Shown here piece after piece: positions 7,380 through 35,606 of a stretch of 51,705 nucleotides of DNA. Position 1 is the first letter of the stretch. Every line of letters begins with the position of its first letter. A model generated the notes under the pieces. That model was given only the letters and a program-made list of their open reading frames with translations, was not told the origin of the DNA and made no database searches. The DNA comes from Acidobacteria bacterium 13_1_20CM_3_53_8 (GTDB taxonomy: Bacteria; Acidobacteriota; Blastocatellia; Pyrinomonadales; Pyrinomonadaceae). The stretch spans positions 1 to 51,705 of the forward strand of contig MNJR01000078.1 of assembly GCA_001920415.1 (NCBI GenBank), written 5' to 3'. The translations under genes and the position numbers were made by a program.

Positions 7380-7702
7380 CTTTCGTTGGCGTAAAGACGG
7401 GTTAGTAAGAATGTTAGCGCTCTGTTTTGTCTATCCACAATTCAATCTCGGTCTAAGCTGTGACCTGATGCACGGAGTGCAGAGTGACGAGCGTCACTGA
7501 CTTGATACGGTGCTGCGTAATACTCACGGCATTGCCCATTGAGGATGTTGCTCTGTAAGAAGTCTGTTTGAAACTATCGTTCACTGGAGTGATGATAGCG
7601 TTTGATCTGCTTTGACAATATCATTGCTTGTTCTCTCTGCCGAACGTCAGTATAGCTCAACCCTTATCTTTATTCTCTTGTGAGGTGAAGGAAATTCTTA
7701 TC
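7380..7702. other. Upstream region of the protease gene, nothing recognised
   Basis: The gap holds no gene-like frame. A longer in-frame start for the protease at 7628 exists, but its extra residues precede the signal peptide and lack a good SD. Confidence 0.5.
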
Positions 7703-9595
7703 ATGCGGTGTTCCTCGTTCCTCAAGCGCATCAATAAAAACAGTTCCACGAAGTCGCGCACTCCTCTTCTGCTACTCATACTGTTTTTAGTAGCCGTCAC
7801 CCTGCCCTTCGTCTCGCGCGCAGCGCTACAGAATCGGCGCTCTAATGTCAGTCACCAAAAACAGAAGCAACTCAATTATGTGCCGGGCGAGGTTCTGGTT
7901 CGCTTCCGCGCTGGCGCTAAAGGCGCGCAGGCCGAATCGAACGAGCAGACGCTCCTGGTCAACGGGCGAGAGATTAATGTTCAGATGGAGCGCATTGATA
8001 GCTCGAACATTGTTGAAGGCTTGCGTCTGGCGCGCGTTCCTTCCGATGAAACCATTGGCGCAATCGCCGCCCTTCAATCGCGCGCGGACGTTCTTTACGC
8101 CGAGCCGAACTACATACGACACCTGGACACGCTGCCGAACGACGCGCGCTTTGGCGAGATGTGGGGGCTGAAGAACACAGGGCAGTTGGGCGGAAAAGCG
8201 GGCGCGGACATTCACGCTGAAGAAGCATGGAGCACGACTACGGGCGACCGCAGCATCGTCGTTGGAGTTATTGATGAAGGGATGGACATCAACCATACAG
8301 ACCTGCAAGCTAACATCTGGCGCAACACGGCAGAGATAGCCGGCAACGGAATTGACGACGACGGCGACGGATTCGTTGACGACGTAAATGGATGGGACTT
8401 CTTTCATAACGATAGCACAGTCTTTGACGGGCCTTCTGCTGACAACTCAACGGACGAGCACGGCACGCACGTAGCGGGAACAATCGGCGCGGTTGGCAAC
8501 AACGGCACAGGCGTTGTCGGCGTTAACTGGCAGGTGAACCTAATGTCGCTGAAAGTCTTTGGCACTGACAGCGAACGACCTTCGAGCGTCAGCCAGTTCG
8601 TGCAGGCTTACTCTTACGCCAAAATGATGCGCGATCTGTGGGTGAGCACTAATGGTGCTAAGGGAGCGAACCTGCGCGTGCTCAATAACAGTTACGGCGG
8701 GTTCGGCCATTCGCAGGCGGAACAGGATGCTATAAGCGCGCTGGGCAATTCAGGAATTTTGTTCGTTGCGGCAGCGGGCAATGACAGTGAGAGTAACGAT
8801 ATTTATCCGCACTATCCTTCTAGCTACGACCTGCCTAACATTCTTGCAGTTGCTGCGTCCAACCGTTCAGACAATCTCGCATCATTCTCTAATTACGGCG
8901 CACGCACAGTGCATATGTTCGCGCCCGGCGCGCAGATTCTGAGCACTACGCCGGGCAATACCTATTCTGTCTTCGATGGAACTTCAATGGCGACGCCGCA
9001 CGTCACGGGCGCAGCCGCGCTCGTCTGCGCGCGCTACCCGAACATCAGCATGCAACAGCTTCGCGCAGTCTTGATGATGAACGGCGACGTGCTGGCCAAT
9101 ACCACAGGGCTGACGGAATCTGACAGGCGTCTGAACGTTGCCGCATCGCTTCAAGCTGCGGGCGAAGGTGACACTACGACGCCCGCTCTCACAGATTTTC
9201 ACGCCATAGCACAGGACGGTCGCACCGTCACGCTGGCCTGGACTGCGCCGGGCGACGATGGCGCGAGCGGTCGCGCTTCGCTCTACGAAATAAGGTTCAC
9301 GGATCAGGCGACGAACGTCTCTTATCTGCTGAAAGCGATGCAGCCCAAAGCGGCTGGCGCGCAGGAGAGTGTGATAGTCAACGTGCCTGTGAGGCACACG
9401 GCGGGAACTATCACTCTTCGCGCGATTGACAACGCGGGCAACGTAGGCTCGTCGAGCATCAACGTCACGGTCAACGCGGATGCTGCCGAGCCATACACCG
9501 TGACGGAATCCGCGCCGAGCCAGCTTTCTACGGGCGGGAACCATTTGCAGATGAGCTACGACGATAACATACGGGGCTACATTCTGCCGTTTTAA
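7703..9595 (+). CDS. Subtilisin-like serine protease, N-terminal part of a frameshifted giant protein
   Basis: S8-family secreted protease. ATG at 7703 follows GAGGTGAAGG. A signal segment ([17 protein letters not shown]) is followed by an inhibitor-like propeptide ([10 protein letters not shown]...VLYAEPNY) and the catalytic domain with Asp191 (VIDEG), His253 (EHGTHVAGT), oxyanion Asn (AAAGND) and Ser428 ([12 protein letters not shown]). An Ig/FN3-like domain follows. The frame stops at TAA 9593-9595 in the middle of a domain; the next frame continues with the expected motif, so the stop is a frameshift, not a natural end. The protease domain itself is complete. Confidence 0.9.
9590..9593 (+). 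other. One-base frameshift joining the two halves of the protease-RCC1 gene
   Basis: At a run of four T, dropping one T changes CCG-TTT-TAA to CCG-TTT-AAT and joins ...GYILPF to [12 protein letters not shown], the usual strand pattern of this domain type. No start codon or SD occurs for the second half until 9684, inside the domain. It is either a real mutation or a sequencing error. Confidence 0.8.
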
Positions 9596-12500
9596 TATTT
9601 CTACTAACGGTGCGATCTATTTTCCCCCGAACCCGCCGAACAGTGATCCGCTAAGCCTCATCAGCTTTGTCTCAGGTCAGAAGATGATAGCAGGCGAGTG
9701 GGACGACCTTGATTTGAGCACGAGCAGGCGCGCAGACGCAGACGTTTACGTAGTGCCGCCGGACGCGGCGAATCCCAATCGCATAATCTTTCGATGGCAG
9801 GGCGTAACTTTTGGCGACGGCACAAACGGCGACCCCGTTAACTTCGAGATAGAGTTGCGCTCGGATGGCACAATCATCAAACGCTACGGCGAAGGCAACA
9901 CAAACATCTTCCCGGTAGTAGGCATCAACGGCGGTGAGGCCGATCCCTACATCGTCAATTCGCACACGTCTGAGTTTGAGCCGATTGAGTTGACGAACGC
10001 GCAGACCGTCACTTACTCGCTCAAAACGCAGCCCAAAACAGCAGACCTTAATCTGACGGCGAAGAGGAGTCCTAATCCTGTGCTGTTGGGACAGAACCTT
10101 ACCTACACGCTCGCGGTTTACAACGCCGGGCCTGGGTCTTCTTCCGGCGTCGCGCTGGCGGGCAATGTGCCGTCACAAATGTCTTACGTTTCGTGCACGA
10201 CGACGCAGGGCGTGTGCAGCGGCCCTGCGACTCAGACGGGCGGAACCTTCAGCGCGCAGCTAGGCACACTGGCTGCGGGGACGACCGCCACGCTCACCGC
10301 CATAGTCAACGCCACGAATCCTACGGGAAACTTCTCGACTTACGATAACAGCAGCACGGTCACAAGCCAGACGACCGACCCAAGTCTTTATTCAAACACG
10401 GCGACGACCATCACGAACGGCGTTGTCCCGAATCCTAAGCCGCTGACGGGCGTTGCGAAGATAGCTTCCGGCTCAAGCTTTTCACTGGCGATTAAGACGG
10501 ACGGAACTGTGCTGGCGTGGGGACAGAACGATAACGGGCAGCTAGGCGACGGCACTCACACAAACAGGTCGCAGCCTGTCGTCGTGCCGAACCTGACTGG
10601 CGTCGTTGCGATTGACGGCGGCTTCGCGCATACGGTCGCCCTCAAATCGGACGGAACGGTCTGGACGTGGGGCGTGAATTTTAATGGACAGCTAGGGGAC
10701 GGAACTACGACTTCGAGAACAAATCCCGCGCAGGTGAATGGTCTTTCAAATGTTCAGGCGGTAGCGGCGGGCGCAACTCACACAGTTGCCCTCAAATCGG
10801 ATGGGACTATGTGGGCGTGGGGCGATAACACTAAAGGCGAACTAGGCGACGGCACTCTCGCTAACAGAACGGCTCCTGTTCAAGTTGCAGGACTCGGCAA
10901 TGTTGTGGCAATCGCTGCGGGCGCTCAGTTCACGCTCGCCCTAAAATCTGATGGGACAGTGTGGGCATGTGGCAGCAATTCTTTCGGTCAGTTAGGCGAT
11001 GGAACAAACATAGATCGTTCGACGCCTGTGCAGGCGAGCAGTCTTTCAAATGTGAAATCAATTGCTGCGGGTTACGGCCACGCGGTCGCGCTTAAAACAG
11101 ACGGAACCATCTGGACATTCGGCTGGAACGGCTTTGGGCAATTGGGCGACGGGAGTTACGCGAACAGGTCGCAGCCCGTTCAGTCTAGCGGTTTCTCGAA
11201 CATAGCAGCAATCGCCGCAGGCTACGGTCACACTGTCGCGCTTCGCAACGACGGGACTGTGTGGACTGTAGGCGATAATCACGTCGGGCAGTTCGCTAGC
11301 GGCGATACCACGCCGGATAGAGCCACTGCGCCCGCGCAGGCAATCTGGATAAGCGGCGTCGCAGCCATAACCGCAGGGAACGATTTCACGCTCGCCTTAA
11401 AAGGCAACGGCATGGTCTGGGCATGGGGTAGCGGCTCCTTCGGGCAGTCCGGCTCCGGCACGCCAGACGCTCGCTGGTTCCCTTACGAGGTGACTGAGCA
11501 GTCGCCCGGGCCTCCGCCTGTAGGCACGCTCTCGCTTCCAACATTCGACCCGGACGGCGGCGCCTATTCTTCAACTCAAGCAGTCAGAATCAGAAGCAGC
11601 AACGCTGAAGCTGGCATCTCGGATGTTTCGACCGGAGGTAGCCATTTTCTAGTAAGACTTTCAGACGGAAGTTTCTATGGATGGGGAAATAATTACTACG
11701 CGCAACTGGGATTCTCGCCCGGCGGTCCTTTGCCAGACCCAGCGAAGTACACCATCACTACTCCTTTGCAGGTGAGCGTTCCGAGCGGAGTTGTTGCACA
11801 TGCTGCGGGCGGAAACCATAACCTTCTGCTGAAATCGGACGGAACGGTTTGGGCATGGGGAGCTAGCTTTCAAGGTCAACTGGGAGTGGCTGTTCCCAAT
11901 GCTTCATTCCGCACGACAATAGAGCAGGTAAGTGGTCTGACAGGCGTCAAAGCCATCTACGCAGGAGGCGCCACCAGCATTGCTGTTAAGACAGATGGAA
12001 CCGTCTGGGGCTGGGGCGATATTACTCCGTCAAGTGGATTAACCAGTGCGCAACCAGTACAGTTGAGCAACCTGACGAATGCTAAATCCATCTCGCCCGG
12101 TGCCGCTCATATTCTTGTTGTTAAATCTGACGGGACAGTCTCGGCATGGGGCTACAACTCAAACGGTGAACTCGGCAACGGAACAAACAACAACTCAAGC
12201 ACGCCTGTCCCTGTGAGCGGTCTTTCAGGAGTCAGCACAGTTGCTTCGGGCGGCGATTTTTCGCTCGCGTTGAAATCAGACGGAACTGTCTGGGCTTGGG
12301 GCGCGAACGTTTACGGGCAACTCGGAATCGGAGCAGATTTTAGTGCTCACAATACGCCTGTTCAGGTTCAAGGCTTATCGAACGTAGTAGCAATTGCTGC
12401 GGGAGGGCAGCATGCTCTGGCTTTGAAATCGGACGGAACGGTCTGGGGCTGGGGAACTAACTGGAACGGCGAACTAGGCGATGGAACGGGTGCGCAACAG

Positions 12501-13619
12501 AGGACGCCTGTTCAGATTCCTGCATTCACCAATGCGAAGCAGATAGGAGCCGGATACCAGCACTCTTTCGCATTCAAGACAGACGGGTCGCTCTGGATTA
12601 CTGGAATGAATGACTACGGACAGATTGGCGACTCGACGACAGAGAAGCAGTTTAGTCCGAAACAGATGACGCGCTTAAACGGTGGCGTGACCATTCATTA
12701 CACGACCAATGGCGCAGACCCGACCGAGAGCGATCCTACAATTAACTCTGGCGGAAGCATTCAGGTTGATCGCAACCTGACACTCAAAGCAAGAGTCTGG
12801 AAGCAGGGCTGGACACAGAGCAGCATTAAGACAGCCGTCTACACAATCAATACTCCAAACCCGATAGACGATGCTAGAACATTCATACGTCAACATTACC
12901 TGGATTTCTTAGGAAGAGAGCCAGACCAATCAGGCTTGGACTACTGGACATCTCAGATAACCCAATGCGGCACAGACCAGCAGTGCATACATGATAGACG
13001 TGTAGGCGTATCGGCAGCATTCTACATAGAGTTGGAGTTTCAAGAGACAGGTTCTGTTATCTATAGAATGTATCGTGCATCATTCGGCACATTGGCGGGC
13101 ACTCCAACCAGAGCCAATATAACCTACTCACAGTTTTCTCAAGATCGTCCACAACTTGTTGCAGGACAAGCCTTGCAACAGAGCACAGTGAATTTCGCCA
13201 ATCAATTCGTTCAAAGAGCGGAGTTTAAGACTGCTTATCCCGATACGATGACGAACACAGAGTTTGTCAATAAGCTATATGACACGGCAGGTCTTACCCC
13301 ATATACGAATGAGAGACAGGCTCAAGTCACAGCAATGCAGGGAGGCAAAACCAGAGCGCAGGTTTTACTTGACGTCATAGAGATTCCAGAGTTCAAGACT
13401 ACGGAGTACAACCGAGCATTCGTCCTTATGCAATACTTTGGATATCTCAGGCGTGATGCTGATCAAGGAGGATATGATTTCTGGTTGGATGTGTTGAATC
13501 GTCTGCCTCCTCCTAATAACTTCCGCAACATGGTATGCGCATTTATTACATCAAGCGAATACCAGCTTAGATTCGGGCAGACTGTTACTCGTCATAACTC
13601 TGATTGCGCGTCGAATTAG
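9594..13619 (+). CDS. RCC1 double-propeller, DUF11 and DUF4214 portion of the same giant protein
   Basis: Read in frame from the frameshift, domains in order: the end of a beta-domain ([10 protein letters not shown]), a DUF11 repeat ([20 protein letters not shown]), seven RCC1 blades (about 10441-11500, each with [12 protein letters not shown]..xxGQLGDG), the first half of a chitobiase C-terminal-like domain ([16 protein letters not shown]), seven more RCC1 blades (11616-12680), the second half of that domain ([14 protein letters not shown]), then DUF4214 ([15 protein letters not shown], 12870 to end). With the protease half the intact product would be about 1,970 residues. It is secreted and probably cell-surface; the propellers may bind protein or sugar ligands. 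The first ATG in this half is at 9684. Confidence 0.85.
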
Positions 13620-20122: not shown

Positions 20123-21358
20123 ATGTTAACAGGTAAACTCAACAGGAATGCTCTGCCCCTCATTCTTTTGTTGGCCGTTACGCTGGCGGCGCAGATAGTT
20201 GCGTTCGCTCGACCTGATAATACGGGGACGAGCGCGGGCACCGTAATCACCAATCAAGCCGAAGGGATATATGTTGATGATGCGGGCACGAGCTATTCCA
20301 CGGTCTCGCCAACCGTCACGCTCACTGTCTTAGCCGTCTCCACGCTCAAGACCACGCCTGACGAAACAAGCCCTTCGGCCACAGTTGGCCCAAACGAGCA
20401 CGCGACGCGAGTCTTTCAAGTCTGCAACACAGGGAACACTCCAGACCTTTACACAATCACACGCGCAGAAGTTAGCGATCCGGCAGCGCTCGCCGGACTC
20501 TACTACGATGTGGACGCGAGCGGAACGCTTACGAACACAGATCAGCCCATCACAGTCGGCGTGTCGCTTTCGCCGCGAGTTGCGCCTGCGTCGTGCATAG
20601 GCGTCCTCGCAGTGATTGATACAAAAGACTATCCTGCGAACAGCAATCTCACCATACACATTACTGCAACCTCGAACGTCGTTAACTCTGCAACAAGTCG
20701 CGCGGAAGACGACGGCACAATCATTAACTCGGTTGGCGCTGGCGCTAAACTTACAGACCCGAACAACACTAGCCTCCCTCCCGTCAAATTGGTAAACGGC
20801 AACGCTCAGGCTGTAGTAAGCCCCGGCGCGCCCTTCACCTATTCGATAGCTTTCCGCAATAGCGGCGATACCCCTGCGCACGGCGTAGTCATCTCGGACG
20901 ATCTTCCCGCTCAACTAAACTACGTCGGCGGCACGCTTCGTCTTGATGATAGAACTCTCTCGGACGCTACGGACGCGGACGAAGGTTACGTGCAGGGCAA
21001 TCGCGTCGTAGTGCAATTAACAGAGGTCGCGCCGGGTCAGGTTGTAAGAATAAATTTTAAAGCGACTCTCAACGCTAATACACCATCGGGCGAGGGCGTG
21101 ACGAACGTTGCGAATCTTTCGGCGCAGAACGCGCCGCCCGCGAAAAGTTCTATGGCGGTTGTAGTCGTTGATCCGTTCGGGACTGTCTTCGCAGGGCGCG
21201 GCGGAAGCGCATCGCCTATTCCGGGCGCGCGAGTTGAAATTCTTCAAGACCAGAACGGCTCTCTATTAAAAATTCCAGAGGGCACGGGCTTCGACCCGAA
21301 CACTTCAAATGCGAACCCTTACGCGACAGACGGGCTGGGACTATTTCATGCGCGTTAG
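20123..21358 (+). CDS. DUF11 surface protein, N-terminal part of a frameshifted gene
   Basis: A signal peptide (LPLILLLAVTLAAQIVAFA) is followed by the shared starter motif GTVITNQAEGIYVDD, an Ig-like domain with a Cys pair (VFQVCNTGNTPDLY ... APASCIGVL), and a DUF11 domain (SPGAPFTYSIAFRNSGDTPA). The frame stops at 21356-21358 just inside a carboxypeptidase-regulatory-like domain (NPYATDGLG). The next frame overlaps by 50 bases and continues that domain, so this is one gene split by a single-base frameshift between about 21330 and 21355. Confidence 0.8.
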   Translation: MLTGKLNRNALPLILLLAVTLAAQIVAFARPDNTGTSAGTVITNQAEGIYVDDAGTSYSTVSPTVTLTVLAVSTLKTTPDETSPSATVGPNEHATRVFQVCNTGNTPDLYTITRAEVSDPAALAGLYYDVDASGTLTNTDQPITVGVSLSPRVAPASCIGVLAVIDTKDYPANSNLTIHITATSNVVNSATSRAEDDGTIINSVGAGAKLTDPNNTSLPPVKLVNGNAQAVVSPGAPFTYSIAFRNSGDTPAHGVVISDDLPAQLNYVGGTLRLDDRTLSDATDADEGYVQGNRVVVQLTEVAPGQVVRINFKATLNANTPSGEGVTNVANLSAQNAPPAKSSMAVVVVDPFGTVFAGRGGSASPIPGARVEILQDQNGSLLKIPEGTGFDPNTSNANPYATDGLGLFHAR

Positions 21359-24300
21359 CGCAGACGGTTACGCGACGAGAATGTTAGAACTGAGCGCGCA
21401 TTCGACTCAGGCGGGATTGTTCGCGCTCTCTGTTCACGCTCTTGACGGGCAGGCGCTAGCGCGCGCTGGCGGATTCGATCTGGTTCACGAGGATGTGAAC
21501 ATAAACGACATGGCTGCCGTTGCGCTCAACATACCAATGTTCGAGCAGCATGGTCTTGAGATTACGAAGATTGCTGACCAGCAGCGTGTACAGATTGGCG
21601 ACGCTGTGAGTTATCGCATAGAAATTCACAACCCGACGGCTGCCGCTGTCAACGACGTTGTGCTGCATGACACGTTGCCCGTCTCGTTCAACTACGTCGC
21701 GGGCACAGCGCGCCTCACAGTAAACAGTTTGCCAGAGCAGGCGATTGAGCCTGAAACGTCCGGCAGCGATATGATCTTTCGCATAGGCACAATCGCTCCG
21801 GGCACAAGCGCGCGTCTAGTCTATCGCGTGCGTGTCGGAGCGAACGCGCGCGAAGGCAATCAGGAGAACCTGGCCGTTGCTTCTGGAACATTCTCTACGG
21901 GCGAGCGCACGCAGACCGCGCCAGCGCGTGCGACAGTTTCGGTCGGCGCAGGCGTCTTCTCTAATCGTCAGCTTATTATTGGTCGCGTCTTCGTTGACAT
22001 GAACGGCAATAATAAGTTTGATGATGGCGATAAAGCTATGCCGAACGTCAGGCTTTATTTAAGCTCCGGGCAATCTGTAGTGACAGATTCGCAGGGGCTT
22101 TACAGTTTCCCTGCGATTAACGAAGGGGCGCAGGTGCTCTCGCTAGACCCTGTAACTCTGCCGGAGCGTTACTCGCTTGCTGACGACGGAACGCTTGCGA
22201 GCCGCAGTTGGACTAGAATGCTTCGCACGCCGCTCGGAGGCGGAGCGATGCTACGCCAGAATTTCGTGCTCGTTGCAAGCAGCGGGACAGACCACACATC
22301 AGCAGCTACATCGCTCACAGGCGAGCAGCCTAACGTTAACCAGCAGAGCGCGCGACCTGCGCAGCAGCCAGCCGTTTCGACTGCGGCGCGCAATAGCGAG
22401 AACGCACAACCGACAGCTTCTGGAACTTACGAGTTCGTTTCCACAGAGCGAGTAACGCCTGTAGAGCCGGGCGAAGTGCAGATCGTTTCGCCCGAAGTCA
22501 ACTCGGTCGTGATGACTCCGGCGATGCAGTTGGACGCGCGCGTTGCGATTCACTGGACGGTGAAACTCGAAGTCAACGGTAAACCGATCTCTTCGTCAAG
22601 CATAGGCACAACCAGACAGGACGCAGCCAATCAGATAACGACTTACACTTTCGTCGGCATTAATCTCAGGCCAGGCCCTAACACAGTTCGAGTCACGCCC
22701 GTTGATCCTAATGGTGGAGAATGGCACGCAAGAGAGATTACAGTAATGGGACGCGGGCCAGCGCGCCGCATAGAGATTGTTCCTGAGAGAAGGGAAGTGC
22801 AGGCGGGCGGACATGACGCGATTACTTTCCGCGTGCGTGCGTTCGATCAGTGGAACAATCCTGCTGCTGATGACCAGATTGCGATTGATACTTCTGCGGG
22901 AAATCTACTTAGAGTCAACACAGACGGAACGACCGCAAACACGGCTTCTGACAACTCGCTCGCCGAGAGCGTAAACACTTCAGCCGCGCCTCAGACTTCT
23001 ACGTCACCAATGGCGCAAATGAACCAACAAACCTCTCAAATGGTAGTTCAAACCAGAGGCGGCGAGGCTCTGTTGAAATTAGTTGGGCCGGGCGCGCCGG
23101 GTGAAGCGAAACTGCACGCGCTCTCTGGAAGATTGGAAGCGCAGACGGAAGTTCGCATTGTACCGGAGATGAGAAAGCCTATACTCGTAGGTTTGGCAGA
23201 AGTGAGCGTTGGACAATCCCTGCCGCAGGCCGCGCTACAGAATGATGACAGGCATACTGAAAGCCGTTTGAGCTTCTATTTCAGCGGGCGCATCTGGCAT
23301 GACACCGTGCTGACGCTCGCCTATGATTCAAATCGTCCAATCAACAGGACTGCCGGGCGCAATCGTCTCTTCCAACAAGACCCGCTTAATCGCGCTTACC
23401 CACTATTCGGTGATTCGTCCACCAGATTCGATGCAGCGCCGTCGAACTCCAAGCTCTACGCACGCCTGGATCACAATCGCTCTTACGCTTTGTTCGGCGA
23501 CTTTGAGACGGACATGAACGATCTGGCGCTAGTGGGCTACACGCGCAAGCTGACGGGTGTGAAAGTTCATGTGGAAAACTCTCAGGGCGATTTCGTGACC
23601 GTGACGGGCGCTCGTCCAGACACTGCGTTCGCGCGCGATGTTTTCCCTGCGGGCGGACTGAGTCTGCTAAGACTTTCGCACGGAGAGATTCTGGAAGGCT
23701 CGGAGACCGTATCGCTTGAGGTGCGCGACCGTCGCAATCCTGAAACGATTCTCTCGCGCGAAACTCTGATGCGCTCGATTGATTACAACCTGGACCCGTT
23801 CACGGGGGAAATCTTCTTCCTTCGCTACATCTCTGCGTTCGATTACGATTTGAATCTAGCGCAAATAGTCGTCACCTATGAACACAACGCAGACTCGCTC
23901 TCATCTGCTGTTTACACTACGCGCGTGAGAAAGACGTTCGCAGGGCTTGGGCTTCAAATTGGATTCGCGGGCGTCATGCAGCGACAGGAAGAGTCAGGCT
24001 CTTTCTACGTTGGAGGGTTCGACGCAGAGCAGCGCTTGCCGCACAACGGCAGACTTCGGCTGGCTTACGCGCGAAGCCAGGGGGAGATAGCGGGCGGCGG
24101 AAACTTCTTCGACAACGGATTGGCCGAGCACAATGGCAGCGCATACATGATTGAGTTGCAGCAGCCGCTCCCGACTTACGAAGCTATCATACGCGCGCGA
24201 TACTCGTCAGCATCGGAAGGCTTCTTCAATCCGTTCGGCGCTACAGTCACGCCCGGCTCGCGTCGCGGTGAGCTTTCGGTTGAGATGAAGCCGCGAAGTC

Positions 24301-25715
24301 GTTCGACATTGAAGTTCGGATTGATGGACGAGCGCAACCGGACTGCGAACGTCAACAACTCGCGTCTTACACTCTCTGCTTCTTGGGAAGAGGTTGTAAC
24401 GGAGCGCTTGCGTCTTCGTCTTGGCTACGACCATCGCCACCTGAGCGATGAATTGTCAGACCGCACTACGGATTCAAATCTAGTAACTGCTTCGGCTGAG
24501 ATGCGCGTGACCGACAACCTGCAAGTTTCCGTTAGACGCGAGCAGAATCTTGGAGAGGCTGATCCGACCTATCCGAACCAGACGACGCTTGCGGCCACGT
24601 ATCAGGTGAACAAGTGGGCCAAGCTTTTTGTGACTCAGCGGCTGGCTTCTGCCGCAATCATGCCGATTGCAGATTTCTCGCAAGGCGGATTCGCTTCGAC
24701 ATCTGCGCGCCACGAGACTGCTATTGGAGTTGAGACGCGACTTGGGCGTTACACTTCGCTAGTGAGCCGCTACCAGCTTGAGAACGGTATAAACGGGACG
24801 GACAGCTTCGCAATCATTGGCTTGCAGAACCGTTTGCCCATCACGAAACAGCTTCAGCTTGAGCTTGGCTTCGAGCACAGCTTCCATCTGGCAGGCGACG
24901 GCGACGGCTACGATAGCGTGACCATCGGATTCGGCTGGCAGCCCAATCAAGATTTCAGGGCGAGCGGCAGATATGAGTTCCGAGACCGCGCAGGCATTGG
25001 GCAACTCGTAAGCCTCGGCGCGGCTGGAAGATTAAGAGAAGGCATCACGGCGCTCTCGCGCTTCCAGTGGGCGCGAACCAATTTTGAGGGACGCGCTGGC
25101 GAGACGTTGGATGGAACTGTGGCGCTGGCGATTCGCCCTATAACTTCGGATCGCATGGGCTTGCTTTTGAGCTACACGCACCGCTCGCTCTTCCAGGATG
25201 GCCTCAGTGGTCAGGACGCAACGCGCGAGCGTATTGACTCGCTCTCCACGGATGGTTATTTTCAGGCGACAGACGACCTGGAGCTTTACGGTCGTCTCGC
25301 TTTGCGATACAGCGTTGACGGGCAGAACGATCTTACGCTCGTACAGACCCTTACATACTTAACGCAGGCGCGCGCGCAATATCGTCTGACGCGCCGTATG
25401 GATTGGGCTGGAGAGTTGAGATTCCTGATTCAGCCATCATCCAATACTGCGCGTTCGAGCTATGGAACGGAGCTTGGTTTCTGGGTCATTCCAGATTTGC
25501 GCGTAGGGCTAGGTTATAATTTCAATCAGGCGAGCGAGCCTCGCGGCGCGTCCGCGCTCCTTTCAAGACGCGGATTCTACTTCACGCTCTCTTCAAAAAT
25601 CTCGCGCCTCTTCGATCTCTTCGGGTCGCAGAGTCGCGGGTTGTCAGGCCAGGCGAGCGGTGCGCAGGAGAATACAGACAGCAGCAGCGGCCAGAACGAA
25701 TCTAATAGACATTAA
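21309..25715 (+). CDS. DUF11/SdrD-B/outer-membrane beta-barrel protein, C-terminal part
   Basis: The ATG at 21309 is probably not used; the true reading joins from the upstream frame. Domains in order: end of a regulatory-like sandwich (RVSADGYATRML), DUF11 (RVQIGDAVSYRIEIHNPTA), SdrD-B-like (GRVFVDMNGNNKFDDGDKA), Ig-like segments, then from about 23230 to 25620 a long array of alternating amphipathic strands (LSFYFSGRIWHDTVLTLAYD ... RRGFYFTLSSKISRLF) typical of an outer-membrane beta-barrel. A low-complexity Ser/Gln tail ends it. The full product would be about 1,860 residues. It is probably the membrane anchor or exporter of this surface cluster. Confidence 0.78.
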   Translation: MRTLTRQTGWDYFMRVSADGYATRMLELSAHSTQAGLFALSVHALDGQALARAGGFDLVHEDVNINDMAAVALNIPMFEQHGLEITKIADQQRVQIGDAVSYRIEIHNPTAAAVNDVVLHDTLPVSFNYVAGTARLTVNSLPEQAIEPETSGSDMIFRIGTIAPGTSARLVYRVRVGANAREGNQENLAVASGTFSTGERTQTAPARATVSVGAGVFSNRQLIIGRVFVDMNGNNKFDDGDKAMPNVRLYLSSGQSVVTDSQGLYSFPAINEGAQVLSLDPVTLPERYSLADDGTLASRSWTRMLRTPLGGGAMLRQNFVLVASSGTDHTSAATSLTGEQPNVNQQSARPAQQPAVSTAARNSENAQPTASGTYEFVSTERVTPVEPGEVQIVSPEVNSVVMTPAMQLDARVAIHWTVKLEVNGKPISSSSIGTTRQDAANQITTYTFVGINLRPGPNTVRVTPVDPNGGEWHAREITVMGRGPARRIEIVPERREVQAGGHDAITFRVRAFDQWNNPAADDQIAIDTSAGNLLRVNTDGTTANTASDNSLAESVNTSAAPQTSTSPMAQMNQQTSQMVVQTRGGEALLKLVGPGAPGEAKLHALSGRLEAQTEVRIVPEMRKPILVGLAEVSVGQSLPQAALQNDDRHTESRLSFYFSGRIWHDTVLTLAYDSNRPINRTAGRNRLFQQDPLNRAYPLFGDSSTRFDAAPSNSKLYARLDHNRSYALFGDFETDMNDLALVGYTRKLTGVKVHVENSQGDFVTVTGARPDTAFARDVFPAGGLSLLRLSHGEILEGSETVSLEVRDRRNPETILSRETLMRSIDYNLDPFTGEIFFLRYISAFDYDLNLAQIVVTYEHNADSLSSAVYTTRVRKTFAGLGLQIGFAGVMQRQEESGSFYVGGFDAEQRLPHNGRLRLAYARSQGEIAGGGNFFDNGLAEHNGSAYMIELQQPLPTYEAIIRARYSSASEGFFNPFGATVTPGSRRGELSVEMKPRSRSTLKFGLMDERNRTANVNNSRLTLSASWEEVVTERLRLRLGYDHRHLSDELSDRTTDSNLVTASAEMRVTDNLQVSVRREQNLGEADPTYPNQTTLAATYQVNKWAKLFVTQRLASAAIMPIADFSQGGFASTSARHETAIGVETRLGRYTSLVSRYQLENGINGTDSFAIIGLQNRLPITKQLQLELGFEHSFHLAGDGDGYDSVTIGFGWQPNQDFRASGRYEFRDRAGIGQLVSLGAAGRLREGITALSRFQWARTNFEGRAGETLDGTVALAIRPITSDRMGLLLSYTHRSLFQDGLSGQDATRERIDSLSTDGYFQATDDLELYGRLALRYSVDGQNDLTLVQTLTYLTQARAQYRLTRRMDWAGELRFLIQPSSNTARSSYGTELGFWVIPDLRVGLGYNFNQASEPRGASALLSRRGFYFTLSSKISRLFDLFGSQSRGLSGQASGAQENTDSSSGQNESNRH

Positions 25716-25735
25716 CCGCTCGACGTAGACTGAAG

Positions 25736-27055
25736 ATGCTAAGACAGAGAGCCATAAAATTTGTGCGCTTCAACACTAGAGCCATGCTGGTGAAAGCAGG
25801 CTTGCTTGCGTTCGTCTTCATTGTATGGGGAGTCAGTAACGCATACGCGGGCATAACTGTTACGCCTGTAACCTGGAACGTAGTGGGTCTTGACAGCAAC
25901 AACACCAGCGTAGGGCCTGACGCTTTTCAGGTAGGCGTGCGCGTGCATAACACGGGCGCAGCGGCCATCACCAACGTCATGGGAAATTTTGTCTGGGATA
26001 GCGCGAACGTCAATATCAACTTGAGCGGCGCAAGCACTGTCAACGCGGGCACTCTAGCAGCAGGTGCATCCTTTGACATCTATTTCCCTATAGTAGTCAC
26101 TAGAACCTCTGCGGCCTATAATACAACGCGCCGCTACCACATCACTGTAAGCGCCGATAGCACTGCTGCGGTGAGCACGCCCGTGCCACGCGAGATATAT
26201 GTCGAAAAACTGATCTCACAGAACAGGAACTCTGTGATTTCAGTCACGGGTCCGACCAGTGTGTACGTCGGCCAGACTTATAGCTACACTGTGACGGCCA
26301 GCACTGCGACCGGAGGGTACGAGCAGTTAGAAGCCTTCTTAAATCTGTCGAATATAATCTTTCAAGTCCTCTCGATTTCGACAACTTATACGTCCCCTAC
26401 TGGCGGAACTAACGATAAGTTTTACGCGGACGCCTGCGGCTGGGACAACGACCCATTGAGTCCGACTTACAGGAGTTGCATAGGCCCTGCCAACTATTCA
26501 GGAGGCAAAGCGGGCGGCAACATCTCTACGACCTACACTGTCAAGGTGCTTTCGACAGGAACGACGACGGCGAGTACACTGATTCGTGATTTTTCGGGGA
26601 GCAGTTATCATTACAACAGCGATTACGGGACGACTTCTATAACTATCACAGCCGTCCCTCCGCCTGTGCCCAGTATAAACCTTCAGAAATCTGTGAGTCC
26701 GAGCCTGGCTTCGCAGATACTTCCCGGCGCAGACCTGACCTACACCATCGCAATCAGTAACGTAGGCACAGCGCCAGCGACCAGCCTTGTTGTTACAGAC
26801 CCCGTCCCGGCGAGTACAGATTTCAAAGTAGGCTCAACGACCAACAGTCTAGGCTCGACAGGGCTTACAGCTAGCGTCTCCTATTCCTCTAACGGAGGCG
26901 CGACGTGGACATACACGCCCGCGAGCGGCGCAGGCGGAGCGCCCGCTGGCTACGACCGCAACGTTACAAACGTCAGGTGGGTATTCAGCGGCAATCTGAG
27001 CCAGACATCTCCAAACAACGCGGGCAGCGTCAGCTTCATAGTTCGCATTCGTTGA
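25736..27055 (+). CDS. Secreted DUF11 protein
   Basis: 439 residues, starting 20 bases after the barrel gene, so probably co-transcribed. A signal peptide (GLLAFVFIVWGVSNAYA) is followed by two Ig-like domains (one with a Cys pair in ADACGWDNDPL...RSCIGP) and a C-terminal DUF11 domain (KSVSPSLASQILPGADLTYTI). It ends at a last strand SFIVRIR, as do its cluster neighbours. A surface or appendage subunit is inferred. Confidence 0.82.
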   Translation: MLRQRAIKFVRFNTRAMLVKAGLLAFVFIVWGVSNAYAGITVTPVTWNVVGLDSNNTSVGPDAFQVGVRVHNTGAAAITNVMGNFVWDSANVNINLSGASTVNAGTLAAGASFDIYFPIVVTRTSAAYNTTRRYHITVSADSTAAVSTPVPREIYVEKLISQNRNSVISVTGPTSVYVGQTYSYTVTASTATGGYEQLEAFLNLSNIIFQVLSISTTYTSPTGGTNDKFYADACGWDNDPLSPTYRSCIGPANYSGGKAGGNISTTYTVKVLSTGTTTASTLIRDFSGSSYHYNSDYGTTSITITAVPPPVPSINLQKSVSPSLASQILPGADLTYTIAISNVGTAPATSLVVTDPVPASTDFKVGSTTNSLGSTGLTASVSYSSNGGATWTYTPASGAGGAPAGYDRNVTNVRWVFSGNLSQTSPNNAGSVSFIVRIR

Positions 27056-27789
27056 GCGCTCGATTCCTTATCCGCAAGGCGGACTCAATTCAATTCACAC
27101 ACATCTGATCTAACGTGAGTTCGATATAAGACGAAGTGCGAGCAAGTGAATTATTCACGAAACAACACTAAACTACACTAAACGCATTCTTCTCTTCGTG
27201 TAGTTTCGTGTGATGCGCGTGTATAGTTCTCTCCCTTTCTCTCTTACATCGAACTCACGTTGATCTGGATTCTTGTGCATGCTCGATTCTGTTTGTAGCG
27301 ATCATGCTTAGAGCGTTGACGTGTTCTCACGCTGCGTTCGATCTGAGTGCTCTCGCGATAATCTACTGAAAATCTCAAAACACGACGTAGCTCATCTGAT
27401 TTTCAAATAGCCCTACAAGTCCACTTCTGAATATGGATTCAGGCATCTACTCGTGTGTCGTCGCCGATTGCTTGACTAAAATAGGTGACGCGCATAAGAT
27501 ACGTGCCACTTTCTAGATTCTGCTATGGCCTCTTAACGCAGGCAGTTCTTGGCTATTAGCATTTGGCCCGGATTAGATTAATTCTCAGGCTTACCTCGTA
27601 TGGAGAGAGACTTCCGTTTGAGCTTGAGCACAGCGGTTTCTCTTAAAATCAGTTATGAGATAGTCAAATAACAACCGCTCATCACAGCCCCTACGCCTTT
27701 CATGTATTGATCTAGGTGCAGAGAGAGGCGAACGTGACCTTAGTGTCACAGAATCTGAGCGGCGCACAACCAATGAAAGGAAGAGTTAT
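27056..27789. other. 730-bp gap, no gene seen
   Basis: A small imperfect inverted repeat built on CACTAAACTACAC / GTGTAGTTTCGTG lies at about 27160-27215. No gene-like frame, RNA or promoter was recognised in the rest, which lies before the 27790 gene. Confidence 0.5.
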
Positions 27790-29565
27790 ATGTTTACCCC
27801 CAACATGGCCCCCCGGCTCTTAGTCCTTCGCACAGTCAAATCCTTTGCCCGTCGCGCGCGTCTATACTTGCTCGCATGTGCGCTTACGGCCATAGCGATC
27901 GCAGTCCTTTGCTTTACGCCGTCTTCCGGCGCAGTGTTTGGTTCACTGGTCATCAGCCAGTTCTACAGTCACGGTAACACTGGCAGCTCTACCTTCAATA
28001 CCGATTACGTAGAGCTTGCTAATTTAAGCAAGACAGCGATTGACGTCAGCAATTTTTCAGTCCAATACATAGATTCGTCCGGCAACGTGCGCGTAATCAC
28101 CTTCAACTCGGGCACAACCATCCAGCCGGGCACGTTTTACCTGATACAGGTCGGCCAAGCAGGAGGTAACGGGGGGCCAATAATTGCGCCTGGCTCTCCT
28201 GTCGGGCAGCAGGGGCCGGATCAGGTCTTCGACATTGGACAGGCCACAGAGGATTTAGCCAATCCTACGGGAGTGACCGGCAACAAGGGCTTAATCGCGC
28301 TCTTCGGCAGCACTACGCCACGCGACCTGATCAACTGCGACTTGAGCGGTGCGGTAGATTACGTCGGCTACGGGAGCGCGCAGACATGTTTTGAAGGGAT
28401 TGGGGCGGCTCCAGAAGGTGATAAGAATCATTCATCGTCCAGGGTGCTTGCGCCTAACGGCCCCATAGATACTGACTACAATTTTGCGGATTTTACCGCT
28501 ACAATCACCCCTTCCACCCCGCCCACTCCGCACAACAGCAACTCGTCGGGGTTCACCCCGACCATAGCGAGCGGCGTCATCTCAGGAACAATCCTGACAG
28601 GCGACGGGACGCCTGTGGCCGGAGCGAGCGTGCGGCTGAGTGGGTCTGCTTCGGCGCTGACAGTCACGGACAGCCTTGGACGCTACAGCTTCGAGGGCGT
28701 GAATCCAAGCGGCTTCTACCTAGTCATGCCGTCAAAGGCTAATTACAATTTCAACCCTGCGAACAGAGCCTTCTCGCAACTGGGTAGCATCACCGAAGCC
28801 GCGTTCACAGGCGAGGCGCAGCCGGAGACAGCCAACCCGCTAGATACACCCGAATACTTCGTACGCCAGCAGTATCTGGATTTCTTAGGTCGTGAGCCAG
28901 ATGCAGGAGGCTTAGCCTACTGGACTGCTCAGTTTGAGGCTTGCGGAACTAATGGAGGCTGCATACGACAACGCAGATTGGATGTATCTGCTGCATTCTT
29001 CCAGAGTGATGAATTCCAACAGACAGGCTCATTCCTATATAGACTATACAAAGCAAGTTACAGTGTGATGCCCACCCAGGAGCAGTTCACACAGGATCGC
29101 AGCCGCGTTGTTGATGGAGATAATCTGGAATCTCGTAAAGCAGCATTCGTAGAGGAGTGGGTCAAGAGAGACTCATTCAAACAATCTTATCCAGATTCTC
29201 TGAGTGCGGAAGAGTTCGTCTCAAGACTAATGAATGCAGCAGGATACCCACCACGAACAGGAGAGTGGGAAGCATATATCTTGATGCTCAATCATGGAGG
29301 GACGAGAGCGCAGGTGCTCACAAGTTTGATTAATGATGCTGGGTTTAGAGAAAGAGAGTACAACTCCAGTTTCGTGTTGATGCAATACTTCGGATACTTA
29401 AGACGTGATGCTGACTCAGGAGGGTATCAATTCTGGCTGGATGTATTGAATAACCGTGTGATGGGTAATTACAGAAGCATGGTTTGCGCTTTTCTGACAT
29501 CCACTGAGTATCAAAGACGTTTCAGTTCCGTTGTCCCTCATTCCAACTCGGAGTGTGGGCAGTGA
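27790..29565 (+). CDS. Secreted lamin-tail-domain protein with DUF4214
   Basis: 591 residues, ATG with GGAAG upstream. A signal segment (LLACALTAIAIAVLCFTP) is followed by an LTD domain (LVISQFYSHGN...DYVELANLS, IDVSNFSVQYIDSSG), a carboxypeptidase-regulatory-like domain (GTILTGDGTPVAGASVRLSG, DSLGRYSFEGV), and a C-terminal DUF4214 domain ([15 protein letters not shown] ... [17 protein letters not shown]) that also ends the giant protease-RCC1 protein. From about 28850 the DNA switches to AGA-rich, A/T-richer codons. Extracellular; function unknown. Confidence 0.83.
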   Translation: MFTPNMAPRLLVLRTVKSFARRARLYLLACALTAIAIAVLCFTPSSGAVFGSLVISQFYSHGNTGSSTFNTDYVELANLSKTAIDVSNFSVQYIDSSGNVRVITFNSGTTIQPGTFYLIQVGQAGGNGGPIIAPGSPVGQQGPDQVFDIGQATEDLANPTGVTGNKGLIALFGSTTPRDLINCDLSGAVDYVGYGSAQTCFEGIGAAPEGDKNHSSSRVLAPNGPIDTDYNFADFTATITPSTPPTPHNSNSSGFTPTIASGVISGTILTGDGTPVAGASVRLSGSASALTVTDSLGRYSFEGVNPSGFYLVMPSKANYNFNPANRAFSQLGSITEAAFTGEAQPETANPLDTPEYFVRQQYLDFLGREPDAGGLAYWTAQFEACGTNGGCIRQRRLDVSAAFFQSDEFQQTGSFLYRLYKASYSVMPTQEQFTQDRSRVVDGDNLESRKAAFVEEWVKRDSFKQSYPDSLSAEEFVSRLMNAAGYPPRTGEWEAYILMLNHGGTRAQVLTSLINDAGFREREYNSSFVLMQYFGYLRRDADSGGYQFWLDVLNNRVMGNYRSMVCAFLTSTEYQRRFSSVVPHSNSECGQ

Positions 29566-32313: not shown

Positions 32314-32510
32314 AACGGCCTAGCCTTTCAGCCCGACAGTGCAACGCTATCATAGCACATCGGCGCGCTCGCTTGTCTTATGCGAGCTTAATGAGCAAAT
32401 GCGCCAGTCTATCTTTTGATATAGTAGAACTATGCACCGGCATCTTACTGCTGTTATATTGCGCTCGAAGTATTGAAATTAAACTTGCTGTGAGTACGGG
32501 AATACCTCAC

Positions 32511-35500
32511 ATGATGGAGCATAACTTTACAACTGCCTTTGAGAGAGAGTCGCGTCTCGTCGCGGATTTTCAGCAGCACGAGAAAGATTATCTCGCCTCC
32601 TCTTATTCAGAACAGGACGTGCGCAAGGATTTTATAGACAAGTTCTGGATGGCGCTCGGTTGGGATGTGAACCATGAGGAGCAGAAGAATCCAAACGAGC
32701 AAGAGGTAAAGGTTGAGCGCAACGTCGGCGTCGAAGGAAGAATTAAGAAAGCTGATTACGCTTTCCTCACGCCAAACTTCCGCGACGTGCGTTTCTTCGT
32801 CGAAGCCAAGAAGCCTGCGCGCAATATTGATAACGCAGACGATTATTTCCAGACCATACGCTACGGCTGGAACGCGCAAACGCCCGTCTCCATCCTCACG
32901 GACTTTGAGCAGTTCCGCGTGCTCGATTGCCGGCTCAAGCCGGATGTGAAGACCGCGCTCAATCGCGCTATCCCGAAGCTCAAATTTCATTACACGGATT
33001 ATGCAGACCCTGAGAAGTTCGCGGAGATTTATTATCTCTTCTCGCGCGAGGCGGCGCACGCCGGAAAGCTGGAACAGTTTGCCGCCGCGATGCCGAAGCC
33101 GACGGGCAGGGCTGCGAACCGCAAGCTCTTTGCGGAGGCTTACAGACCCGTTGACGAAGATTTCTTGCAGCAATTGGATGAGATGCGTAAGGAGTTGGCG
33201 CAGTCGTTCAAGCTACGCAATCAGCAGTTGAACGGCGAAGAGTTGACCGAAGCCACGCAGCGCACGCTTGATCGGCTTGTCTTCATGCGCTTTCTTGAAG
33301 ACAAGTTGATTGAGCCGGAGCCGATGGTTGAGAAGTTGGGCGACGGCGGTTCGGCATGGGGCGATTTCGTCGCGCAGTCCGAAAGGCTGAATCGAATCTA
33401 CAACGGCATCATCTTCAAGCCACACTTTATAGACGCGAATGATTTCGTCGTTGATGAAAAGGTTTTCGCGCCGGTGCGTGAGCGTCTGGCGCACACGAAC
33501 ACTGTCTATAACTTCAACTACATCCCGATTCACGTTCTAGGCAGCATCTACGAGCGTTTCTTAGGCAAGGTCATCGTCACGACCGCCTTGCGTGCGCGCG
33601 TCGAAGAGAAGCCGGAGGTGCGAAAGGCTGGCGGCGTCTATTACACGCCGGAATACATCGTGCGCTACATCGTCGCAGAGACTATAGGCAAACTCATAGA
33701 GGGCAAGAAGCCCGCAGAGATTGCGTTGATGCGTTTCGCAGACATCGCGTGCGGCTCAGGCTCTTTCCTGCTAGGCGTCTTTGACGAGTTGCTGCGCTAT
33801 CACACGGCTTATTACAACCGCAACAAGACGAATCGCGCCGAAGGCGTGCGCGCCGGATGCGTCGAGAACGCGGACAAGACATTGCGCCTTTCGCTCAGGC
33901 AGAAGAAAGCGATTCTGACCGCGAACATTTACGGCGTTGACTTGGACGCGCAGGCGGTCGAGGTCGCGCAGCTTTCGCTGTTCCTCAGATTGTTGGAAGA
34001 CGAGACGACGGCGAGCGCGCGAGGGCATCAACTGGAATTCCGCGAGACGATGCTGCCGGACTTACGCAACAACATCAAGCACGGCAATTCGCTCATCGGT
34101 CGGGACATCGGTTTCGGGTTGTTCGGTGACGAGGAGGAACGCAAGCTGTCTCCGGTGGACTTCAAAGACGCATTTCCCGAAGTGATGCGGCGCGGCGGCT
34201 TCGATGCGATTGTCGGCAACCCGCCTTACATCCGTATTCAGACTTTGCAAGAGACGACACCGCTTTCAGTTGAATACTTCAAACAGAAATATGCGGCGGC
34301 GAGCAAAGGCAACTATGACATCTACGTTGTTTTCATCGAACGAGCATTGCAGCTATTGAACGCAAGCGGGCGACTCGGCTACATCGTGCCGCACAAGTTT
34401 TTCAATTCACAATACGGCGCATCAATTCGCAAGGTGTTATCCGAAGGACAGCACTTATCTCATGTCGTCCATTTCGGAGACGCGCAAGTTTTCGAGGGCG
34501 CGACGACTTACACCGCGCTGGTCTTCGCAGATAAACCCGCACGCGATGAGATGCGATTCGTGCGCGTGAAAGCTTTGAGCATATGGCGCGACACGCAAGA
34601 AGGCGATGAGGGTAAGATCAATGCATCACAGATCACATCCAACGAATGGAATTTTAGTATTGGCAAGGCTGCCGTACTATTTGAGAAGTTGAGTGCCATG
34701 CCGACGAGGTTAGGCGATATAGCTCATTTATTCGTTGGGCTGCAAACTGATGCCGATGATGTTTTCATTGTCAATGAAGTAAAAAGAGCAGGCTCGTCAA
34801 TAATTTGTTTCTCGAAATACACGGGGCGTGAACACGAATTTGAAGACGAACACCTAAAGCCGTTTTTGAAAGGCTCGTTGAACATCCGCAGATATGAATT
34901 GTCTGACGTGAATAAGCGCTTGATATTTCCTTATCGTACCGAGAACGGTCGCTCCGTTCTTATTCCGGTTCACGAATATAAAAAACAATTCCCCTTAACA
35001 TGGGCATACCTTGAAGAATGCAGACCAAGACTGAGCAAGAGGAATAAAGGAAGAATGAATAATGAATGGTATGGGTATGTTTATAAGAAGAACCACACGA
35101 AATTTAATATCCCTAAAATCCTTGTCCCCTCGCTTGCAACGGGAAGCTGTTTTGCAATTGATTCAGAGGGACAATACTACTTTGTCGGAAGCGGCGGAGG
35201 AGGTGGAGGCGGTTATGGAATCGAATTGAAGGCTGACGTAGAAATATCATTTGAATACCTACTAGGCTTGCTTAATTCAAAAGTAGCAAGCAGCTTTCTC
35301 AAAGCCATTAGCAGCCAATTTCGCGGCGGCTATATTGCCTTAAATCGCCAATACATTGAACAACTCCCAATCCGCACCATCAACTTCTCCGACAAAGCCG
35401 ACCGCGCCCGCCACGACCGCATGGTGTCGCTCGTCGAAGCGATGCTCCACGCCAAGCGGCAACTCCAAACGACGCGCTCCGACCGCGACCGCGACCACTA

Positions 35501-35606
35501 CGAAGCGAAGTGTGCCGCGCTCGACCGACAGATTGACGAGTTGGTTTATGAGTTATACGAGTTGACGGCAGATGAGATTGCTATTGTTGAAGGAAAAGAA
35601 AATTGA
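32511..35606 (+). CDS. Type IIG restriction-modification enzyme (Eco57I-like)
   Basis: About 1,031 residues. The N-terminal nuclease domain has a PD-(D/E)xK pattern (KADYAFL ... FFVEAKK). A helical linker follows, then an N6-adenine methylase with GGVYYTPEYIVRYIV, motif I DIACGSGSFLLG (about residue 411) and motif IV NPPY (570). The target-recognition region contains a run of seven glycines, and the C-terminus ends in QIDELVYELYELTADEIAIVE. One chain therefore cuts and methylates DNA. ATG at 32511 (or 32514) is chosen because the longer N-terminus has no domain. Its last 70-137 bases are copied five times downstream. Confidence 0.9.
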   Translation: MMEHNFTTAFERESRLVADFQQHEKDYLASSYSEQDVRKDFIDKFWMALGWDVNHEEQKNPNEQEVKVERNVGVEGRIKKADYAFLTPNFRDVRFFVEAKKPARNIDNADDYFQTIRYGWNAQTPVSILTDFEQFRVLDCRLKPDVKTALNRAIPKLKFHYTDYADPEKFAEIYYLFSREAAHAGKLEQFAAAMPKPTGRAANRKLFAEAYRPVDEDFLQQLDEMRKELAQSFKLRNQQLNGEELTEATQRTLDRLVFMRFLEDKLIEPEPMVEKLGDGGSAWGDFVAQSERLNRIYNGIIFKPHFIDANDFVVDEKVFAPVRERLAHTNTVYNFNYIPIHVLGSIYERFLGKVIVTTALRARVEEKPEVRKAGGVYYTPEYIVRYIVAETIGKLIEGKKPAEIALMRFADIACGSGSFLLGVFDELLRYHTAYYNRNKTNRAEGVRAGCVENADKTLRLSLRQKKAILTANIYGVDLDAQAVEVAQLSLFLRLLEDETTASARGHQLEFRETMLPDLRNNIKHGNSLIGRDIGFGLFGDEEERKLSPVDFKDAFPEVMRRGGFDAIVGNPPYIRIQTLQETTPLSVEYFKQKYAAASKGNYDIYVVFIERALQLLNASGRLGYIVPHKFFNSQYGASIRKVLSEGQHLSHVVHFGDAQVFEGATTYTALVFADKPARDEMRFVRVKALSIWRDTQEGDEGKINASQITSNEWNFSIGKAAVLFEKLSAMPTRLGDIAHLFVGLQTDADDVFIVNEVKRAGSSIICFSKYTGREHEFEDEHLKPFLKGSLNIRRYELSDVNKRLIFPYRTENGRSVLIPVHEYKKQFPLTWAYLEECRPRLSKRNKGRMNNEWYGYVYKKNHTKFNIPKILVPSLATGSCFAIDSEGQYYFVGSGGGGGGGYGIELKADVEISFEYLLGLLNSKVASSFLKAISSQFRGGYIALNRQYIEQLPIRTINFSDKADRARHDRMVSLVEAMLHAKRQLQTTRSDRDRDHYEAKCAALDRQIDELVYELYELTADEIAIVEGKEN

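Follow-up and report, generated by a model that had tools for sequence, protein, structure and literature searches.

A seven-blade RCC1-like propeller predicted to lie nested within a CHB_HEX_C_1 sandwich in a probably secreted subtilase of Pyrinomonadaceae

The stretch of DNA analysed here (hereafter the window) comprises the 51,705 nucleotides of contig MNJR01000078.1 from Acidobacteria bacterium 13_1_20CM_3_53_8, a member of the Pyrinomonadaceae, and all the features discussed below lie on its + strand. The ORF of interest (9684-13619, 1311 aa) encodes a DUF11 domain, fourteen RCC1_2 stretches, a CHB_HEX_C_1 domain and DUF4214, as identified by Pfam. It is preceded by an ORF at 7628-9595 with a Peptidase_S8 domain (PF00082, 4e-52), a fervidolysin-type prodomain (PF22148, 1.4e-5; both Pfam) and an N terminus judged by eye to be signal-like; it ends in the start of what we label a nidogen-like region. 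In relatives, this upstream ORF is the N-terminal part of the same gene. The frame is unbroken in four related loci (L032, L033, L034 and L035), and in the genomes G109, G043, G106 and G107 a single frame begins with an N terminus that looks signal-like by eye and continues through the prodomain, Peptidase_S8, nidogen-like, DUF11 and RCC1 regions to DUF4214, the peptidase sharing with the rest of the protein a frame from which it is separated in the window. The protein with the nested architecture is the C-terminal part of a subtilase, which is probably secreted in view of the signal-like N terminus. By-eye comparison with these four genomes places the frame break at 9580-9625; near 9595, inside the nidogen-like region, the window falls about 12 residues short of these unbroken genes and the frame shifts. 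The split may be a real break or an assembly fault, the sequence fitting either, and because the break lies upstream of it the window copy may not make a secreted protein.

Several other coding regions of the window were noted. The region 20123-29565 contains three adjoining DUF11 ORFs, one of them of 1468 aa, followed by an ORF with a lamin-tail domain and DUF4214 (27790-29565). Further downstream lie an Eco57I-type restriction-modification methylase with a TaqI-like specificity domain (32373-35606) and a protein with a VIT and a von Willebrand A domain (42485-44956). No tandem repeats were found at the DNA level at the score used.

Within the 1311-residue protein, DUF11 (10044-10409, residues 121-242; PF01345, 1.5e-16) is followed by a first RCC1 propeller of seven blades, P1 (10443-11501), which was recognised by Pfam and a blade motif and is not nested. 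The first part of a CHB_HEX_C_1 sandwich comes next (11532-11612, residues 617-643), then a second seven-blade propeller, P2 (11613-12680, residues 644-999), the second part of the sandwich (12681-12848, residues 1000-1055) and a C-terminal region with DUF4214 (12849-13616; PF13946, 1.4e-21, in three stretches). A sequence-only reading of this DNA had proposed seven blades between two sandwich halves and another seven-blade set before them, which is what was found: Pfam identifies 14 RCC1_2 stretches in the whole protein and seven in a segment of 460 aa (11499-12878), while the motif counts 7 + 7 in both the window protein and its G109 relative. That reading had the blades and the second half right within a few codons, the figures above being the corrected ones. 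As for the first half, which it had started at 11530, the domain part does begin close to there, at about 11532, but the peptide beginning FDPDGG that it had placed at 11530 begins at 11544.

The CHB_HEX_C_1 profile (PF13290) is interrupted at about position 19 in this protein. When the whole protein is searched with Pfam, the only contiguous match covers profile positions 14-67 directly after the fourteenth blade, with 31.1 bits against a curated cut-off of 22, and the missing start of the sandwich lies between blades 7 and 8, some 356 residues before this match. Automatic annotation would therefore show the host domain as a truncated match, which calls for caution. Once the halves are joined, the match begins at profile position 1 in each of the three carriers known to us, with a gain of 12 to 18 bits over the second half alone: 49.7 bits over 1-67 in the window (second half alone, 37.2), 48.6 over 1-63 in G109 (30.7) and 41.0 over 1-65 in G043 (28.6). 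Joining a shuffled first half instead (one shuffle was tried) gave 39.0 bits, a gain of 1.8. The first half was also recognised on its own by a local HMM built from 28 uninterrupted domains that had been picked by a motif requiring the first half, none of them from a carrier protein. It scored 12.7 bits in the window (E 6e-4, model positions 3-31), 17.9 bits in G109 (E 1.5e-5) and 14.2 bits in G043 (E 2e-4), with E-values calculated for the 111 RCC1 ORFs scanned, while the second half scored about 60-70 bits in the carriers (70.5 in the window) starting at model position 21-23.

These observations bear on the possibility that the two pieces share no domain and are unrelated linkers flanking a second head-to-tail propeller. 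Such an explanation could draw on the fact that the second half alone passes the Pfam cut-off with its 37.2 bits, and on the existence elsewhere in the class of PF13290 matches that start late in the profile. Outside the carriers, 16 matches in the class begin at profile position 17 or later, of which 11 were fetched and nine could be read by the local HMM (at least 15 bits); none of these nine has RCC1 blades in the 70 residues before the match, and eight of them resemble hexosaminidases by eye. Of the other two fetched, L166 had no local-HMM match of at least 15 bits, and the one match that could be read in L170 was a second one with an earlier start. Two matches that cover just the beginning of the profile (G109:C54, G108:C21) occur in other kinds of protein. 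Nor did the scan of the 111 RCC1 ORFs (from L032-L047, L058-L149 and the window, the short stretches L001-L031 and L048-L057 being left out), which returned 95 domain matches, reveal further cases: besides the carriers it gave two late starts, one in L059, where the sequence before the match is another CHB-like sequence rather than RCC1, and one in L042 at chance level (1.9 bits). With the first half independently recognised in each carrier, and contradicted in addition by the ablation described below, the notion of unrelated linkers is very improbable. PF13290 itself is ordinary in the class, being present in 72 of 162 genomes, although in the window genome the split domain is its single match (E <= 0.001).

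The segment 11499-12857 was modelled with AlphaFold2 from an alignment of 41 rows. An earlier alignment containing whole CHB rows had been dropped because MAFFT did not align the CHB first halves with that of the window and put them partly against the end of the propeller, and the halves were then entered as separate rows. Only the window and L073 rows contained both halves, so the alignment could have taught the joining by two sequences at most. The full model has a pLDDT of 93.1 and a pTM of 0.90, and the strands of the first half (15-17, 21-23 and 27-32) and of the second half (398-402, 420-423, 427-434 and 444-450) all lie in blocks of pLDDT 86-98. When the second half was deleted, the first half was left without any strand (pLDDT 58/63/68), while the propeller kept its strands, its blocks mostly at pLDDT 88-98 with a few loop blocks at 76-79. 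The first half, which has strands in the full model only, is therefore predicted to fold only with the second, and the two halves are predicted, by modelling and ablation, to fold as one domain. A pTM of 0.90 would hardly be reached by a lone propeller of 361 out of 453 residues, which suggests a firm position of the sandwich relative to the propeller. The modelled P2 superimposes on UVR8 over 350 residues (model residues 36-396) with a Z of 52.0 and an rmsd of 1.7; on this model, P2 is a whole, closed seven-blade RCC1-like ring. In a structure search aimed at the sandwich fold, the match lists were filled by the propeller. A single-sequence search of solved structures with the joined domain reached only E about 0.06, every match being to the same unrelated type of enzyme, while a profile of 13 uninterrupted domains matched 6q63 (E 1.3e-5) and 8ayr (2.7e-4), with a weak third match at 0.063.

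The joined-halves Pfam match, the independent HMM and the AlphaFold2 ablation thus agree with the original proposal that a complete RCC1 propeller is nested in a chitobiase-type domain. That proposal would have fallen with a predicted structure in which the halves failed to pack as one sandwich, and prediction gave no such result, as judged by ablation rather than by measured contacts. It had also held that other proteins join the two halves directly, as the 28 uninterrupted domains do, and likewise the G106 and G107 proteins at the matching place. Split host parts flank the insert, and homologues of the host without the insert exist, as in intradomain insertions elsewhere. We consider the nested architecture to be highly probable.

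Apart from the window, the nested insert was found in two further genera of the same family, represented by G109 and G043. The segment match to the window query is 51% over 3-450 in G109 and 48% over 2-460 in G043, and the aligned identity of the other two carriers to the window segment is 50% and 48%. The G109 protein (G109:C13) is identical over the 460 residues compared to that of QHXQ01000024.1 (Acidobacteria bacterium isolate gp4 AA16, locus L073), which is the only one of at least 77 loci from the contig search to contain the whole insert. In other loci, among them L091, L132 and L137, the joined match reaches the second half, but the CHB domains are uninterrupted. The blade motif caught nine blades in G043, yet the insert of this genome aligns over its full length with those of the other two carriers. 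Some match to the nested segment is present in 15 of 119 genomes of the family and 20 of 162 of the class, the whole segment being confined in each case to three. In a phylum-wide sample of 396 genomes, with scoring limited to four candidate places per genome and the best matches listed, 68 genomes had some match and only G000 and G043 had the whole segment; no further carriers appeared among the matches listed. Four matches in this sample (two in G182, one in G276 and one in G325) run from RCC1 into the second half, and none of the ORFs that contain them showed a late start after RCC1 in the local-HMM scan. Two other loci, L066 (G477:C174) and L068 (G438:C116), carry multiple CHB_HEX_C_1-like domains in one ORF (seven and four by motif) beside RCC1-like repeats.

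The frame break upstream raises the question of whether the arrangement is an artefact of the window genome, where the copy may be in decay, or wrongly assembled around the break. The nested part itself, however, has an open reading frame, and G043 and G109 have this arrangement in one unbroken frame, which leaves an assembly or gene-decay artefact with scarcely any likelihood at all.

The insert appears to have a single origin. The same insertion point, a PDPAK loop in blade 1 of P2 (11733-11747 in the window) that is invariant in the three carriers, the shortened third blade of P2 in all of them and the grouping of the P2 propellers point to this. In a quick tree of 40 rows, the three P2 propellers form one group (SH-aLRT 100) and the three P1 propellers another (SH-aLRT 97). 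PDPAK occurs in four of the 111 RCC1 ORFs, those of the window, L032, L033 and L073, the last being on the same contig as L032. The proteins of G106 and G107 resemble an empty site, with the same protease, DUF11 and a seven-blade RCC1 set, followed by an uninterrupted PF13290 domain (1-67), PD40 repeats and DUF4214. In a rooted protease tree, the window groups with G106 and G107 (support 90/89) and not with the other carriers, although a single clade of the three carriers is not rejected (AU p 0.096). G106 and G107 as a strict ancestral 'empty site' were thus a candidate that this tree does not support; from the sequences, there may have been gain in the carriers, loss in G106 and G107, or replacement of the C-terminal part of the latter.

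A different route would lead to the same final architecture. The ancestor could have been a tandem of propeller, CHB, propeller and CHB, in which one deletion removed the second half of the first sandwich together with the first half of the second, so that the present halves would derive from different sandwiches, each supplying what the other lacks. In other classes of the phylum, RCC1 sets do alternate with CHB_HEX_C_1 along a single chain (for example L058 and L059), there is no linker where P2 meets the second half, which fits the loss of the first half of a CHB domain that followed it, and P1 and P2, as cut by eye, start and stop at equivalent repeat points. Against this, a non-exhaustive reading of family loci showed no such tandem attached to this protease, and the relation of P1 to P2, which are 44-47% identical within one protein, is not settled by the 40-row tree. 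We regard a deletion of this kind as possible but doubtful.

Whichever way the nested sandwich arose, its geometry may offer a reason why so large an insert would be tolerated. By prediction, the propeller occupies the loop that connects the final strand of the sandwich's N-terminal part to the strand after it. A propeller that closes on itself has its two ends side by side and could therefore replace a short hairpin turn, the sandwich not being pulled apart because these ends adjoin. Nested architecture and this explanation, taken together, seem to us likely. What the insert does is a more speculative matter. The sandwich would hold P2 by two passes of the chain rather than one, making it a fixed side arm next to P1, and the likeliest, though tentative, role for such an arm would be as a binding surface of the secreted protease, be it for substrate, cell envelope or a partner, by analogy with other propellers. 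The PDPAK loop is a candidate contact site. The fuller picture of a doubly tethered binding module, in which the sandwich would act as a clamp orienting P2 against P1, so that both rings form a rigid unit on a secreted subtilase with PDPAK as a lineage-specific contact loop, is at present a long shot. If true, it would provide a case from nature in which a very small host domain carries a very large insert.

The propellers of RCC1, UVR8, the HERC2 RLDs and BLIP-II are known as stand-alone or head-to-tail domains, whereas here a whole ring lies inside a loop of another domain. UVR8 of Arabidopsis has the same seven-blade RCC1 fold as P2, with 28% identity over 350 residues, and BLIP-II is 39% identical to P2 over 240 aligned residues. 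The same two families are also found in one chain, RCC1 then CHB, in Acidobacteriota (G106, G107, L058 and L059), but there they are arranged head to tail and PF13290 is uninterrupted. No paper describing an RCC1 propeller within a CHB_HEX domain appeared among the open-licence PMC papers listed. BLIP-II is reported as a secreted bacterial RCC1-like member and an instance of an RCC1-type ring serving as a binder (PMC9218822). UBR5 is reported to resemble the present case in combining an RCC1-like propeller with domain insertion but in the reverse direction, UBA and dSBB being inserted into propeller blades (PMC10830417). Nesting of a propeller and a β-domain is also known from the Vibrio cholerae sialidase, an Asp-box propeller of type 2, in which a lectin-like domain is reported to interrupt the propeller, while here the propeller interrupts the sandwich (PMC2716378). 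Intradomain insertions as such are widespread: the ProDomino study lists 174,872 sequences with 202 insert and 168 parent superfamilies, in which N- and C-terminal parts of a domain A are split by a domain B just as they are here (PMC12328240). The claim that the architecture is unusual therefore does not extend to nesting itself, but it stands for the ratio of sizes, the medians given there being about 120 aa for inserts and about 160 aa for parents (PMC12328240), as against about 356 aa for P2 and about 83 aa for its host. According to the same study, proximate termini generally favour insertion and larger inserts are less well tolerated (PMC12328240). Three divergent carriers, together with uninterrupted relatives in the same gene family, allow one to study the tolerance of a very large insert by a small sandwich, and also how propellers with side-by-side ends might be moved as loops. 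The protein described here is a genuine example of an already known type of domain nesting, and an uncommon one: the insert is more than four times the size of its host and closely follows another RCC1 ring.
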